A stretch of DNA of 64,000 nt from Halorubrum cibi (lineage in GTDB: Archaea; Halobacteriota; Halobacteria; Halobacteriales; Haloferacaceae): contig NZ_FXTD01000004.1 of NCBI RefSeq assembly GCF_900182635.1, positions 62,001-126,000 on the forward strand. Direction: 5' to 3'. The first letter of the stretch is position 1. Every line of letters begins with the position of its first letter. This document shows, piece by piece, positions 12,546 through 25,709 of this stretch. The position numbers were made by a program, and so were the translations under genes. The notes under the pieces are model-generated. The model was not told the origin of the DNA. It did not search any database and worked only from the letters and a program-made list of their open reading frames with translations.

Positions 12546-13232
12546 TCACTCGTCGTCCGCGTACCGTGCCATCGCGTCCTCGTAGCCGCGAACCGCGGTC
12601 TCGAACGTCTCCCGGAGGTCGGCGATCGGCGTCTCGGTGGCGTCGACGCGGAGGTCGGCGTGGGACGGATCGAGCCGCTCCGTCTCCTCGGTGGTCTCCA
12701 CCCGAACCGCCGCCGACTGGACCGTCAAGTCCTCGCGCTTGTCGCCACCGGCGTCCTGCCCGGCCGCGAGCGCGTCGATCAGGCGCTCCGCGAGCGGGTC
12801 CTCGCCGTGTGCGGTCGACTCGTAGGCGGCCGCGGCGTCCTCGAGGACCGCGGAACCCGCGAGGAGGTTGCCGGCGACGGTGAAGTTCTGTCCGACGCGG
12901 TGGCCGCACCACTCCCCGCACTCGTCTCCGGTGAACGCGAAGATCCCGTCGGCGTCGACGCCGTGGAGCTGTCGGCGGTTACGTCCCTCGTCGGCCGCCA
13001 GCAGCGCGTCGAGCGCGTCCTCGACCGCGAGGCCGTCGGCGAAGTACGCGAGCCCCTTTCGGCCGAGTTCGACGTTGGTGTGCGACTGCGTCGCCACCGC
13101 GCCGTGCTCCGAGGCGAACGGGCACAGCGCGCCGACGCCCGGCAGCCGCGTCGTGACCGCCACGCCGAACCGGACCTGGCCGTCGCCCGTGTCGTCGGTG
13201 TACCGCTCGCGAACGCAGATGCTGAACGTCAC
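12546..13232 (-). CDS. DUF1028 (Ntn-hydrolase-like) protein
   Basis: 228 residues matching the DUF1028 family: N-terminal MTFSICVRE, RFGVAVTTRLPGVGALCPFA, then GAVATQSHTN, the RQLHGVDADG stretch, FTVAGNLLAG and a C-terminal helical part. The family folds like Ntn hydrolases (proteasome/penicillin acylase group) and appears in amino-acid or peptide catabolism clusters; no activity is settled. It converges on the EEP gene and stands ahead of the hydrolase/VOC pair with a 44-bp gap, so co-transcription is possible. Confidence 0.82.
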   Translation of the reverse strand: MTFSICVRERYTDDTGDGQVRFGVAVTTRLPGVGALCPFASEHGAVATQSHTNVELGRKGLAYFADGLAVEDALDALLAADEGRNRRQLHGVDADGIFAFTGDECGEWCGHRVGQNFTVAGNLLAGSAVLEDAAAAYESTAHGEDPLAERLIDALAAGQDAGGDKREDLTVQSAAVRVETTEETERLDPSHADLRVDATETPIADLRETFETAVRGYEDAMARYADDE

Positions 13233-13276
13233 GTCTCGTGATCGAGGTCGCCGGCGAGAAAACGGTGTGGGGACGG

Positions 13277-13990
13277 CTACGACAGGGCCGCGACCATCGC
13301 CGAGACGTACTCCGTCTCGTCCGCGTTGATCCCGTGTCCCATCCCCTCGTAGATCCGGATCTCGACGTCGGCACCGAGCGCCTCCAACACCTCGGCCGTC
13401 TCGTGAACTCGCTCCTCGGGGATGTGCGGGTCGACGTCGCTACAGCCGAGGAAGGCCGGCGTCCCGGCGAGCGCGTCCGTGGAACCGGCGGCGTCGCTCT
13501 CGCCGTCGGGATCCGCGGCGCCGGCGACGTAGTCGTCGACGTCGATCGACTCGCCGATCAGCCCGCCGCTCAGGGCGGCGAGGCCCCCGTATTCGCGGGG
13601 GGTCCGCGCGACGAACTCGCTCGCGAGACACGCGCCCTGTGAGAACCCGGCCACGAGGACGCGCTCGGGAGGAACCCCGGCGTCGGTCGCGGTCTCGACG
13701 GCGCCGGCGACCGCCCGGAGTCCCGAACTCCGTCCCGGCTCGTTCTCCTCGACGGGGGCGAGAAACGAGTTCGGATACCAGGTGTTCGCGGCCGCCTGTG
13801 GGGCTAAGAGCGCGACCGAACCGTTGGGAGACGACACCTCCTCGCCGAAGCCGACGATGCTCCGGGCGGTCGCGCCTCGGCCGTGGACGAGAACGACCGC
13901 GGCGTCGGCTTCCGCCACGGGCGTCCCGGCCGCGACCAACTCCTCGTCGCCGTGGGGGTCGTCGCCCGCGTGTGGACTCCGCCGGCTCAT
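13277..13990 (-). CDS. Phospholipase/carboxylesterase-type alpha/beta hydrolase
   Basis: 237 residues. The oxyanion-hole region is VLVHGRGATA, the nucleophile elbow GFSQGACLA provides the serine, LGCSDVDPHIP holds the acid, and GMGHGI the histidine, so a full Ser-Asp-His triad is present. It resembles the small carboxylesterase/YpfH family. It overlaps the upstream VOC gene by 4 bp (ATGA at 13987-13990). In haloarchaea such hydrolase/VOC pairs are common, which suggests a shared small-molecule pathway, perhaps handling of aromatic or reactive compounds. Confidence 0.87.
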   Translation of the reverse strand: MSRRSPHAGDDPHGDEELVAAGTPVAEADAAVVLVHGRGATARSIVGFGEEVSSPNGSVALLAPQAAANTWYPNSFLAPVEENEPGRSSGLRAVAGAVETATDAGVPPERVLVAGFSQGACLASEFVARTPREYGGLAALSGGLIGESIDVDDYVAGAADPDGESDAAGSTDALAGTPAFLGCSDVDPHIPEERVHETAEVLEALGADVEIRIYEGMGHGINADETEYVSAMVAALS

Positions 13991-21759: not shown

Positions 21760-23814
21760 GTGTCAAAGCAGTTGGCCGAGGTCGAGACGCTGTTCCTCCA
21801 CGAGGCGCGGAGCGACTACACCGTGGTCGCGAACCGGGACGGCAACCGAGTGCTTCGCGGACGCCTCGAGCTCAAAGAGACGTCCGCAGGCCCCCGTCCC
21901 GGCAAGTTCCGCGTCATCAAAGACGGCGAGGACCATCCCCGATCCCCGGACGAGTTCGTCGACCTCGCTCGCGCGGCCACCCGCATCCGGATCTCCGAAC
22001 AGACCTCTCCCGAACGTCGCGAGCGCCTCCACGAGATGCTCGACGGCTACCAGCTGGAGGCGATGGCGGTCCGGACCTGTCGGCGCTGTGCGAACGACGG
22101 ACGCTACGGCCCGATCACGGCCGACACCGCGATCGAGCACAACGGCGAACGGATCTGCCGGGACTGCGCCCGCCGCGAGCTCGAGCGCGAGCTGTCGTAC
22201 AAGGGCGATTTCACGGGCGCGGCGGAGGAGCGACTCGAGGAGCTGTTGTACGACTCGAAGGACCTCGACCGGATCGTCAATCTGCTTCAGGGAGGACTCG
22301 ATCCCGACCTCACCAAGTACGACGAGGTGTCGGCCACCGTCGAGGACGTCTCGCCGGTGCGAACCGACGAGCTCGACCTCCACCCCGACCTGGCAGCCCG
22401 CGTTCAGGGCCGCTTCGAGGAGCTGTTGCCCGTCCAGAGCCTCTCCGTTCGAAACGGGCTCCTCGACGGCGACGACCAGCTCGTCGTGAGCGCGACCGCG
22501 ACGGGCAAGACCCTCGTCGGCGAGCTGGCGGGGATCGACCGGGCGCTGAACGGCGACGGAAAGCTACTGTTTCTCGTCCCGCTCGTCGCCCTCGCCAACC
22601 AGAAGCACGAGGACTTCGAGGACCGCTACGGCGACCTGCTGGACGTCTCCATCCGCGTGGGCTCCTCGCGGATCGCCGACGACGGCAATCGCTTCGACCC
22701 GAACGCCGACGTGATCGTCGGGACCTACGAGGGAATCGACCACGCGCTCCGGACGGGGAAGGACCTGGGCGACGTGGGGACCGTCGTCATCGACGAGGTC
22801 CACACCCTGAAGGAGGGGGAACGCGGCCACCGGCTCGACGGCCTGATCTCCCGGCTGAAGTACTACAGCGAGGAGCGGATGGAGCGCCACGAAGGGTACG
22901 ACGGCACCCAGTTCGTCTACCTCTCGGCGACCGTCGGCAACCCGGAGTGGCTCGCCGAGCGGCTGCGGGCGACGCTGATCGAGTTCGAGGAGCGCCCCGT
23001 CCCCATCGAGCGCCACGTCACTTTCGCGGACGGCCGCGAGAAGGCCGACATCGCCGACAAGCTCGTGAAACGCGAGTTCGACACGAAGTCCTCGAAGGGG
23101 TACCGCGGGCAGACGATAATCTTCACGAACTCCCGGCGACGCTGCCACGAGATCAGCCGAAAGCTGCGGTACGACTCCGCGCCGTACCACGCCGGGCTCG
23201 ATTACGGCCGCCGCAAGAAGGTCGAGCGCATGTTCGGGAACCAGGACCTGTCGGCGGTCGTCACCACGGCGGCGCTGGCCGCCGGCGTCGACTTCCCGGC
23301 CTCGCAGGTGATCTTCGACACGCTCGCGATGGGGATCGAGTGGCTCTCCGTCCAGGAGTTCTCCCAGATGCTCGGCCGGGCCGGCCGGCCCGATTACCAC
23401 GACCGCGGCCGGGTTTACCTCCTCGTCGAGCCGGACGCCGTCTACCACAACTCGATGGACCGGACCGAAGACGAGGTCGCGTTCACCCTGCTCAAAGGCG
23501 AAATGGAGGACGTCGCCACTCACTACGACGAGACGGCCGCCGTCGAGGAGACGCTCGCGAACGTCGTCGTCGCGGGAAAGCGGGCGAAGCGGCTCAACGA
23601 CCGGATGATCGGCGACGTGCCGACGAAGCACGCGGTCGGGAAGCTGCTGGAGTGGGAGTTCATCAACGGCTTCTCGCCGACACCGCTCGGGCGGGCGATC
23701 TGTCGACACTTCCTCGCGCCCGACGAGGCGTTCCGGATCCTCGATGCGGTCCGGAAGGGGACGGACCCATACGACCTCGTCGCGGACCTCGAGCTGTACG
23801 ACGAGGAGGAGTGA
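21760..23814 (+). CDS. Ski2-like superfamily 2 helicase with zinc ribbon insert
   Basis: 684 residues from a GTG. Residues about 108-140 hold a four-cysteine zinc-binding insert (CRRC ... CRDC). The helicase core has Walker A SATATGKT near 247, DEVH box in VVIDEVHTL, YLSATVGNP as motif III, and the second RecA domain with IIFTNSRRRCHEI, VVTTAALAAGVDFPA and MLGRAGRP. A C-terminal helical part resembles the winged-helix/ratchet region of Hel308/Ski2 proteins. It is a conserved archaeal helicase of unknown role, likely in RNA or DNA metabolism. Confidence 0.9.
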   Translation: MSKQLAEVETLFLHEARSDYTVVANRDGNRVLRGRLELKETSAGPRPGKFRVIKDGEDHPRSPDEFVDLARAATRIRISEQTSPERRERLHEMLDGYQLEAMAVRTCRRCANDGRYGPITADTAIEHNGERICRDCARRELERELSYKGDFTGAAEERLEELLYDSKDLDRIVNLLQGGLDPDLTKYDEVSATVEDVSPVRTDELDLHPDLAARVQGRFEELLPVQSLSVRNGLLDGDDQLVVSATATGKTLVGELAGIDRALNGDGKLLFLVPLVALANQKHEDFEDRYGDLLDVSIRVGSSRIADDGNRFDPNADVIVGTYEGIDHALRTGKDLGDVGTVVIDEVHTLKEGERGHRLDGLISRLKYYSEERMERHEGYDGTQFVYLSATVGNPEWLAERLRATLIEFEERPVPIERHVTFADGREKADIADKLVKREFDTKSSKGYRGQTIIFTNSRRRCHEISRKLRYDSAPYHAGLDYGRRKKVERMFGNQDLSAVVTTAALAAGVDFPASQVIFDTLAMGIEWLSVQEFSQMLGRAGRPDYHDRGRVYLLVEPDAVYHNSMDRTEDEVAFTLLKGEMEDVATHYDETAAVEETLANVVVAGKRAKRLNDRMIGDVPTKHAVGKLLEWEFINGFSPTPLGRAICRHFLAPDEAFRILDAVRKGTDPYDLVADLELYDEEE

Positions 23815-23834
23815 GGCGGGACCGACGAACGAAA

Positions 23835-23845
23835 CGCTTTAGCGG
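23835..23845 (+). promoter_or_regulatory. Promoter element of tRNA-Pro
   Basis: The cgctttagcgg element is centred about 27-29 nt before the first tRNA base (23869). This is the usual spacing for a haloarchaeal TATA element. Confidence 0.5.
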
Positions 23846-23868
23846 CTCATCCGGGTAATGGAGAACAC

Positions 23869-23939
23869 GGGACCATGGGTTAGTGGTATACTTCGAGCCT
23901 TGGGTGCTCGTGACCCCGGTTCGAATCCGGGTGGTCCCA
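23869..23939 (+). tRNA. tRNA-Pro (anticodon UGG)
   Basis: 71 nt including the discriminator A. The 7-bp acceptor pairs gggacca with tggtccc, the anticodon stem is cgagc/gctcg with loop cttgggt, giving anticodon TGG (codon CCA), and the T arm is ccccg-ttcgaat-ccggg-like with a normal GTTCGAATC. No intron. TTTT at 23941-23944 follows directly. The gene is 54 bp after the helicase stop. Confidence 0.95.
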
Positions 23940-23940
23940 C

Positions 23941-23944
23941 TTTT
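23941..23944 (+). terminator. Terminator T-run after tRNA-Pro
   Basis: TTTT starts one base after the discriminator and the following C, the usual position for tRNA transcription termination in archaea. Confidence 0.4.
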
Positions 23945-23991
23945 AACGCGCGAGCAACTCACGAGCGTCGCCGTCGCGATCGAGACGCCTG

Positions 23992-24144
23992 CTACCGCCG
24001 GTTTCGCTTGAGTTCTCGCATCCCCGCGTATCCGCGGAAGATGTCGGCGATCCATCGGCCCGCGGCGACGACCGCCTCGATCGGCCGACGCCACCACGGC
24101 CCGAGCTCCTCCTCGGCGTCGTCGTCGGTCTCGTTCGGTGCCAT
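23992..24144 (-). CDS. Small hypothetical protein (50 aa)
   Basis: The product starts MAPNETDDDAEEELGPWW and continues with an amphipathic/hydrophobic helix (PIEAVVAAGRWIADIFRGY), ending in a basic tail (MRELKRNRR). Its acidic start and tryptophan pair are typical of small haloarchaeal proteins. An AACTATG element is about 30 nt upstream. An ATG at 24174 would add ten residues. No family is recognised and, between two tRNA genes, this call stays tentative. Confidence 0.5.
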   Translation of the reverse strand: MAPNETDDDAEEELGPWWRRPIEAVVAAGRWIADIFRGYAGMRELKRNRR

Positions 24145-24353
24145 CGATCCGAGTGGTTCGGTACCGAGACACATAGTTGTTCGTTCGACCGGCGGCTCCG
24201 CCGCGTTTCGGTGCTGACGAAGTCGGTATCCACGCAGCATGCCGTCATCGCTCTTCGAATCGACATTCGTGTCGAAGCGGCGCGTCCTCGAGTCGGGGCG
24301 ACCGCCGTCTTTCGAAATCCTTTTGTCTCGATTCGGCCTTGGTCGAAACGCGA

Positions 24354-24427
24354 GCCGCCTTAGCTCAGACTGGGAGAGCACTCGACTGAAGATCGAGCTG
24401 TCCCCCGTTCAAATCGGGGAGGCGGCA
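24354..24427 (+). tRNA. tRNA-Phe (anticodon GAA)
   Basis: 74 nt with discriminator A. Acceptor gccgcct pairs with aggcggc, D arm gctcagactgggagagc is normal, the anticodon stem and loop ctcga-ctgaaga-tcgag give anticodon GAA, and the T arm is ccccg-ttcaaat-cgggg. A TTTT run begins at 24428. The last 20 nt of this tRNA recur three times downstream. Confidence 0.95.
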
Positions 24428-24490
24428 TTTTCCTGCGAACTCGTGAGGGAGCGGAGCGACCGAACCGTGAGCAGTGAAAATGCTCCCGAC

Positions 24491-24568
24491 CCGATTTGAG
24501 CAGACGAGTCGGGAGCCCGAGCGCAGCGAGGGCGAGCGTCTCGGCGAGTTCAAATCGGGGAGGCGGCA
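24491..24568 (+). repeat. 78-nt module with inverted tRNA-end copies, first occurrence
   Basis: Begins ccgatttgagcagacgag and ends with the tRNA-Phe 3' sequence, so the outer parts are inverted copies of each other (ccgatttga against ttcaaatcgg). It is 74/78 identical to 24760-24837. The central part has gagcccgagcg/cgagcgtctcg words that can also pair. The module could fold into a long imperfect hairpin closed by T-arm sequence. Confidence 0.75.
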
Positions 24569-24759
24569 TCCTGATTCTACACGATTTCCATTCGAAGAGA
24601 TTTCGCTCCGTGTCATAGCCCGAGCTGTCTCCCGTCCCCACGAGTGGAGCGAGCGGGGAACAGTGAGACTCCCTCCGGTCGTCTCACGCGTTTCAAATCG
24701 GGGAAGCGGCATATTCTGAACCCATGAGCGGAGCGAGCGGGTGAATAACCGACGTCGAG

Positions 24760-24837
24760 CCGATTTGAGCAGACGAGTCGCGAGCCCGAGCGGAGCGAGG
24801 CCGAGCGTCTCGGCGAATTCAAATCGGGGAGGCGGCA
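24760..24837 (+). repeat. 78-nt module with inverted tRNA-end copies, second occurrence
   Basis: Same module as at 24491-24568, differing at four positions. It closes the array next to the DUF502 gene. Confidence 0.75.
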
Positions 24838-24845
24838 GTCCAATT

Positions 24846-25709
24846 CTACTGCGTCTTCTCGTCGTTCGGGTCCTCGTCCTCCGCGTTCTCGTCGTCGGTC
24901 CTGATCGCGTCTTGGAGGCGGTCGATGTCGGTGACCTTCTCTAAGTCGCCCATGGTGACGGGCGTCTTCTCGTTGGCGCGCTCGCCGGTGGCGACGCCGC
25001 TCGTGAGGATGCTTCGGACGCCCTCCTCGATGGACATGTCCACGTCCATGACGCGGTCTCGGGGGACGTGCGTCAGGAATCCGCCCGTGACGGGATTCGG
25101 TGCGAGCGGGATGAACAGCGTGACCATCTCGTCGTGACCGGCTGCCTCGGCGACCGTCTCCGGCGACGTGCTCGTCTCGAAGCCGATGACGTGGACGTCC
25201 TCGCCGAAACACTGGACGAGTTTTATCTCCTGGAAGTTCTCGGCCTCGTTGTCGAGCATCACGTCGCCCATCCGGCGGAAGCTCTTGTAGACGGTCCCGA
25301 TTCCGGGAATCGACGCCAGCGCGAGGTCGATGACGTCTATCGCCTGCTCGCCGTATCGGTGACGACCGATCGAGCCGACGACGACGACGATCCCCAACAG
25401 GATGCCGACGGCGATGATCTCGGTGAAGAAGTCGATGACGTAGCCGTAGACGTGTAACTCGATCAGTACGGAGACGAGGTCGGTCTCCCTGAACCACGCG
25501 ATGACGCCGAACCATCTGAGCACTCGGATGAAGGGAGTCAGCGCGCCCGTGATGAAATCGAGGGCGATCGTCAGAACGTACAGCGTGATCACGAAGGGGA
25601 CGATGATCGCGATCCCCGTCATCAACACGTCGAGCGTCCCGCCGTAGAGCGATTCTACCGTGTCACGCGCCGGCCGTGACGAGTCGTCGGAGGAGTCTGG
25701 AACCGCCAT
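24846..25709 (-). CDS. DUF502 membrane protein
   Basis: 287 residues. Two to three hydrophobic regions occupy the N-terminal half (VLMTGIAIIVPFVITLYVLTI; IIAVGILLGIVVVVGSIG). The soluble part has the DUF502 core: IPGIGTVYKSFRRMGDVML, then GEDVHVIGFETSTSPETV, FIPLAPNPVTGGFLTHVPRDRVMDVDMSIEEG. Family members are inner-membrane proteins of unknown role found in bacteria, archaea and plants. The ATG at 25709 starts the family homology; longer in-frame readings run into repeat DNA. The C-terminus is acidic. Confidence 0.85.
   Translation of the reverse strand: MAVPDSSDDSSRPARDTVESLYGGTLDVLMTGIAIIVPFVITLYVLTIALDFITGALTPFIRVLRWFGVIAWFRETDLVSVLIELHVYGYVIDFFTEIIAVGILLGIVVVVGSIGRHRYGEQAIDVIDLALASIPGIGTVYKSFRRMGDVMLDNEAENFQEIKLVQCFGEDVHVIGFETSTSPETVAEAAGHDEMVTLFIPLAPNPVTGGFLTHVPRDRVMDVDMSIEEGVRSILTSGVATGERANEKTPVTMGDLEKVTDIDRLQDAIRTDDENAEDEDPNDEKTQ

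Follow-up and report, generated by a model that had tools for sequence, protein, structure and literature searches.

The tRNA-Phe array in the window

The window, by which we mean the whole 64-kb stretch of Halorubrum cibi DNA that was analysed, holds one intact tRNA-Phe gene followed by three copies of its 3' end at 24548, 24691 and 24817 (locus L034), with 0, 2 and 1 mismatches in 21 positions, respectively. The copies close three consecutive units. In the following list, bit scores and E values of the hairpins refer to R1, a covariance model built from 26 hairpins B with 12 outer pairs.

24354-24427 (+): tRNA-Phe(GAA), the anchor gene, called by ARAGORN and matched by Rfam RF00005 with 61.3 bits
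24407-24427 (+): the copied core, tRNA-Phe positions 53-73, with the sequence GTTCAAATCGGGGAGGCGGCA
24428-24568 (+): unit 1, type I, 141 bp, made of hairpin A, inverted T-arm, hairpin B and core copy; whole-unit fold z -4.1
24428-24490 (+): hairpin A and spacer of unit 1
24491-24558 (+): hairpin B of unit 1, from the inverted T-arm (24491-24501) to the T-arm (24548-24558); R1 50.1 bits, E 2.9e-11, a score that is not independent because R1 was built partly from this hairpin
24548-24568 (+): core copy 1 (tRNA positions 53-73), 0 mismatches
24569-24711 (+): unit 2, type II, 143 bp, without inverted T-arm; whole-unit fold unremarkable, z 0.5
24712-24837 (+): unit 3, type I, 126 bp; whole-unit fold z -1.05
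24712-24759 (+): hairpin A of unit 3
24760-24827 (+): hairpin B of unit 3; R1 41.3 bits, E 6.6e-9
24817-24837 (+): core copy 3 of unit 3

In type-I units, hairpin A lies right behind the tRNA end and is followed by the inverted T-arm CCGATTTGA, the inner hairpin, the T-arm and the acceptor strand. Unit 2 is laid out differently: a 26-nt start, which looks like the left end of integrative elements that occupy tRNA-Phe in relatives, is followed by a tRNA-Phe remnant, two hairpins and core copy 2 at 24691-24711.

The first-pass annotation had described a 78-nt module present twice, at 24491-24568 and 24760-24837. The identity of 74/78 between the two was confirmed, as was the presence of the T-arm in both orientations: both 78-mers begin with CCGATTTGAGCAG and finish with TTCAAATCGGGGAGGCGGCA, their last 20-21 nt are the tRNA-Phe 3' end, and with inverted T-arm, hairpin, T-arm and acceptor strand they form the 3' parts of units 1 and 3. 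The borders had to be corrected. A unit consists of two hairpins plus the 21-nt core and mostly spans about 90-220 bp, and the type-I units of the window exceed 78 nt (141 and 126) because they also include a first hairpin, located between the tRNA end and the inverted T-arm. The folding expected for the 78-mers was found in copy 1, which forms the T-arm hairpin (z -3.3) and folds strongly when 15 nt upstream are included (z -4.6), but not in copy 2, whose fold is weak and different (z -0.9).

An Rfam search of 23800-25000 returned tRNA matches only and no other structured-RNA family. Among the ORFs checked, no recombinase gene adjoins the array, the neighbours being a helicase and a DUF502 gene. 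Spurious ORFs run through the array itself, for instance at 24360-24641 (-) and 24474-24719 (+).

Distribution of the units

In the genome to which the window belongs, 10 of the 44 tRNA genes (9 if a tandem tRNA-Asp gene is excluded) are followed within 450 nt by a copy of their core with at most 4 mismatches in 21 positions, and 34 are not. When cores were swapped between tRNAs, 0 copies were obtained in each of 20 shuffles (9-17 usable pairs each). The genome-wide count of copies with other tRNA ends, proposed as a check by the first-pass annotation, was made with R1 and gave 12 matches, all directly 3' of a tRNA gene and on the same strand: Ser-TGA, Leu-TAA (two), Ser-GGA, Val-TAC, Lys-TTT, Phe (two), Gly-TCC, Leu-CAA, Gly-GCC and His. 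Since R1 was built partly from hairpins of this genome, the scores of these matches are not independent, but their exclusive location is. The word GAGCGNAGCGAG was discarded as a defining feature, as it occurs 58 times genome-wide versus 42 for the reversed pattern and is therefore not specific by itself. At G000:C1:187977-188259, two tandem tRNA-Asp genes precede a decayed unit that has no core copy and is 83% identical to the tRNA-Ser(GGA) unit.

Across genomes, 199 distinct units were collected behind 29 tRNA types (at most 5 core mismatches, L161 excluded), and 167 units behind 27 tRNA types under a stricter threshold of at most 4 mismatches; the loci were partly chosen by motif, and hence these counts are not prevalence figures. 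The number of tRNA types rules out a feature restricted to tRNA-Phe. Units were searched up to 240-260 bp, and most measure 67-202 bp without the core. No genes were found within these cassettes, which sets them outside the definition of an integron cassette.

The inverted T-arm is present with at most 2 mismatches in 11 positions in 138 of the 167 units, and in none of the 167 when the arm was reversed without complementing it; as the swapped-core control also gives 0, a chance repeat is ruled out. In the 105 units whose arm was located by an anchor word, tRNA position 57 (A or G) is complementary to its left-arm partner (T or C) in 100 cases. The outer stem of a 26-sequence alignment is paired in 94.9% of cells, a figure inflated by the preselection of the arms, and contains 22 double changes versus a shuffle mean of 9.4. 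The T-arm stem of the units covaries with the tRNA. In a test of how well arms track their tRNA, T-stem positions 62-65 gave 0.60 with the own and 0.42 with a swapped tRNA, and the acceptor gave 0.33 versus 0.30, which is no clear tracking; the test is partly circular, because arms had been selected by core similarity, and its informative parts are the T-stem and the acceptor. In L234, ARAGORN calls a tRNA-Ser(CGA) at 1450-1543, likely false, directly behind a tRNA-Leu unit.

Matches to R1 were obtained in 86 of 96 genomes of the order Halobacteriales, with a maximum of 42 per genome, counts that may be low since 55 candidates per genome were scored and the filters were stricter. G071, G055 and G117 are among the genomes rich in units. 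The ten order genomes that gave no match are G090, G043, G094, G048, G061, G063 and the small genomes G035, G051, G065 and G074 (family f2); some of them are nearly complete, so that the system can be lost or absent. In a draw of 120 genomes from the phylum, 17 matched R1 and all 17 belong to Halobacteriales, the non-matching ones comprising, among those listed, two order members (G090, G094) and 18 genomes from outside the order, plus 83 further genomes without match. With its tRNA-end variants behind 29 tRNA types and its spread through the order, the module is, as had been supposed, a unit of its own, neither limited to two copies nor devoid of a conserved fold.

A strict exact motif was found in 49 stretches among 84,980 species genomes, 48 of them haloarchaeal and one from an Armatimonadetes MAG. 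Within the order it gave 24 matches in 20 of 98 genomes and 0 in the control. A tRNA lies within 300 nt upstream of all 24 order matches and of 43 of the 49 matches in the collection-wide loci, and among those with a tRNA upstream, a matching core copy was present in 23/24 and 40/43, respectively. The six matches without a tRNA at this distance are in L132, L136, L150 (twice), L158 and L159. The Armatimonadetes stretch (L161) lies behind a predicted tRNA-Val, and its loop has no GAGCG words.

No copy of the unit was found on the plasmids, phages or haloarchaeal viral contigs searched. A viral or plasmid carrier was rejected, as these searches yielded only six T-arm palindromes of a different design on viral contigs (L249-L254). 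These contigs look bacterial and carry a near-perfect palindrome of the tRNA T-arm and acceptor end; in L252 it occupies 13876-13933, about 60 bp from an ORF (12980-13819, -) of 279 aa that reads like a tyrosine recombinase. The palindromes share with the haloarchaeal units the order of inverted T-arm, loop, T-arm and tRNA acceptor end, and differ from them in their near-perfect arms of more than 20 bp, in occurring singly and in belonging to bacterial-looking prophages. They are probably independent of the units and possibly an independent fold-back attachment site.

Filled and empty sites, module exchange and folding

At tRNA-Ser(GGA), 50 loci of the genus were compared (one genome is included twice, as L194 and L199): 29 are filled, 20 empty and one unclear. 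When the flanks of this tRNA gene in G000 were joined at the core, they were 94-95% identical over aligned columns to the empty sites L171, L172 and L173, and 87-89% identical to L200 and L201. Filled and empty orthologous sites thus differ by one unit plus core. Behind tRNA-Phe, 27 of 34 genomes of the genus (G010 left out) have one to four extra core copies, and seven have none.

Regular expressions could not assign a hairpin-B type to 105 of 172 units, so hairpins were clustered instead, and 153 units fell into 89 A clusters and 37 B clusters. B cluster 0 occurs with 13 tRNA types and 25 A clusters, and B cluster 1 with 15 tRNA types and 27 A clusters; hairpins A and B combine freely. Hairpin B has one orientation in 150 of the 153 units and is inverted between the T-arms in three (L086, L118, L137). 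In G071 and G045, two species of another genus whose array loci were selected from model matches, arrays of up to five units share modules in different orders. Behind tRNA-Phe of L062 (G020) stand three identical 122-bp units in tandem and then a type-II unit; the tandem is a recent amplification.

Compared with shuffled sequences, the mean z was -2.0 for hairpin A (n=137), -1.1 for inner hairpin B (n=137) and -0.5 for the flank control (n=138). The sense strand folds better than its complement in 130/158 hairpins A and 129/157 hairpins B; in 172 units the motif GCGNAGC occurs 172 times in sense and 9 times in antisense, and hairpins of the form 2bp-GA-2bp-GNA-2bp-GA-2bp number 100 in sense and 5 in antisense, these strand counts not being independent because the units share ancestry. 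The N of GCGNAGC is free (A63 G50 C36 T23), and over the whole window the motif is found 50 versus 41 times on the two strands. Wobble pairs of the outer stem number 53 G.T versus 29 A.C in the raw count, but after collapsing (31 versus 26) they show no clear preference for one strand. The strand bias indicates that one strand is likely folded, which is compatible with DNA or RNA. GNA loops closed by G-C pairs are described as extraordinarily stable DNA mini-hairpins (PMC4686876), and the GNA triloops of the units would lean towards DNA rather than RNA.

A proposed interpretation as tRNA-anchored cassettes

A recombinase that works on the T-arm, probably via a folded single strand, may well move the units; we give this reading even chances. 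They would be non-autonomous cassettes that have no genes and use tRNA genes as anchors, the type-I form comprising hairpin A, hairpin B and a copy of tRNA positions 53-73. A cassette would insert at the T-arm/acceptor part of the tRNA, its own 3'-end copy would restore the tRNA, and the displaced tRNA 3' end would mark its far border. Repeated insertions would lead to head-to-tail stacks behind one tRNA, and events between arrays would bring one hairpin A together with different hairpins B. The agent would be a site-specific recombinase, most likely of the tyrosine type, supplied in trans and using the T-arm in direct and inverted orientation as its site, and the folded sense strand may participate, as attC hairpins do in integrons. 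A trans-acting enzyme may be compatible with the absence of a recombinase gene beside the window array.

The fold-back substrate for a recombinase, put forward in the first-pass annotation, is the best-supported reading, although neither a recombinase nor a free form was tied to the units. Also against it, no recombinase is linked to type-I hairpins, integrative elements share tRNA ends of other lengths, the plasmids, phages and haloarchaeal viral contigs searched yielded no copy, inversions are found in only 3/153 units, and the strand bias fits an RNA role equally well. Homologous recombination between the 21-nt direct repeats alone could explain losses and changes in copy number, and what sets the mechanism apart from site-specific integration is something that we infer. 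More tentatively, most haloarchaea may possess a gene-less integron-like system with tRNA genes as anchors, in which a recombinase would insert, exchange and now and then invert cassettes at the T-arm, their recombination sites being folded single-stranded DNA hairpins with GNA tips and tandem G.A pairs; such a complete picture is possible and still rather doubtful.

Integrases do act at some of these places. In L100, L101 and L104, tRNA-Phe is separated from further units by elements of about 7.2, 9.9 and 9.7 kb, respectively, and tyrosine recombinases (Pfam PF00589) are encoded near the far border in L100 and L101. In G071, a 54.8-kb element (G071:C1:1166560-1221330; L237, L267, L268) separates tRNA-Arg(TCG) from the unit of this tRNA; the element has an integrase-like ORF of 371 aa at its end and shares about 13 nt of acceptor end with the unit, and the G071 region without tRNA, L237, lies behind it. 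None of the integrases seen in L100, L101 and G071 uses the 53-73 core, the shared tRNA end in L101 being longer (about 33 nt). In the ten PF00589 loci of the own genome, no type-I hairpin was detected at E<=0.01. An integrase travelling with the hairpins was likewise rejected, since apart from the units already known in L100 and L102 none was found; weak hairpin matches at integrase loci were seen in L222 (E 0.014) and L227 (E 0.099). No relatives of the tRNA-Phe integrase were found on viral contigs.

These elements lend some weight to an alternative that we hold to be unlikely, though not negligible: the units would be passive leftovers of integrative elements (viruses, plasmids) that lost their middles, and their att-site remnants would have been copied and shuffled by homologous recombination, with no mobility of their own. 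The start of unit 2, a unit that also has a tRNA-Phe remnant, resembles the left end of integrase elements of 7-10 kb in relatives, L102 joins such a left end to a type-I right end, and integrase elements are located inside arrays. However, random deletion would not leave one two-hairpin design in one orientation (150/153) behind 29 tRNA types with a strand-specific fold, and the ends of the integrase elements in L101 and L104 are without the two-hairpin design.

The units could also form a structured 3' trailer of the tRNA transcript, serving in processing, termination, regulation or as a decoy, with selection keeping the sense fold. The better folding of the sense strand in both hairpins, the excess of sense GCGNAGC, the fixed orientation and the covariation of the T-arm stem with the tRNA would all suit such an RNA element. 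It fits poorly with the patchy presence of the units (34 of the 44 own tRNAs are without core copy, and no unit is present at 20 of the 50 Ser-GGA loci), with the lack of a clear strand preference among collapsed wobble pairs and with the lack of an Rfam family, and an inverted T-arm might make the tRNA transcript misfold; we regard it as improbable. Single-strand transposition of a fold-back element in the manner of IS200/IS605, with tRNA ends as target, is very improbable: a short element without genes that has strand-specific hairpins at either end recalls the Haloquadratum PATEs, described as IS605-derived fold-back elements (PMC3119063), but each unit is bordered by 21-nt direct copies of its target, a duplication that IS605-type elements and PATEs do not cause (PMC3119063), and the model matches of the own genome are all at tRNA ends.

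The cassette reading invites comparison with integrons, in which attC hairpin sites stand at the 3' end of each cassette, one strand folds better, and the stem sequence varies while the fold is kept. The haloarchaeal units resemble integron cassettes in their head-to-tail order, 3'-end hairpin site, strand preference and conservation of fold over a varying stem. They differ in lacking genes, in having the tRNA T-arm as end arm and a tRNA gene as anchor, and in that no integron integrase is linked to them and none with an attI stands beside the window array.

Elements that integrate at tRNA genes by means of tyrosine integrases, SNJ2-like and others, have been described (PMC8371274, PMC3119063), as has a prophage end with a 22-nt tRNA-Ala duplication (PMC3119063). 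In the units, too, the tRNA is restored and its 3' end is found again as a direct repeat marking the far border; in contrast, the units measure about 90-220 bp, too short for an integrase, and have an inverted T-arm and two hairpins. The Haloquadratum SMRs are reported as very short, transposase-free mobile repeats whose mobilisation is called enigmatic, SMR-A targeting PATEs and IS605-type elements with no target duplication (PMC3119063). Our units are also very short and without transposase, but they target tRNA ends and bear a 21-nt copy of the target. G090, which gave no R1 match, may tentatively be a Haloquadratum genome. MITEs and SMRs have terminal inverted repeats; in our units, inverted T-arms bound hairpin B (138/167) but not the unit as a whole. 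SINEs and MITEs are likewise short, dispersed and non-autonomous, with tRNA sequence or inverted repeats, whereas the units of the own genome occur only at tRNA 3' ends and match the host tRNA. The SINE side of the analogy drawn in the first-pass annotation fails, because type-I units carry tRNA positions 53-73 only, and neither a whole tRNA nor its 5' promoter part.

No description of such units was found in the open-access literature searched, which is weak evidence of novelty; a repeated DNA structure matched in 86/96 sampled genomes of the order appears undescribed there. Spurious ORFs and a tRNA call that is likely false, both located behind tRNA genes of haloarchaea, are explained by the units, which also offer a fast-evolving strain marker. 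The polymorphism between filled and empty sites makes the mechanism testable in genetically tractable haloarchaea. If driven by a recombinase, the units would constitute an archaeal system of cassette arrays whose logic is similar to that of integrons, and would bear on the old question of why tRNA ends are hot spots of recombination.
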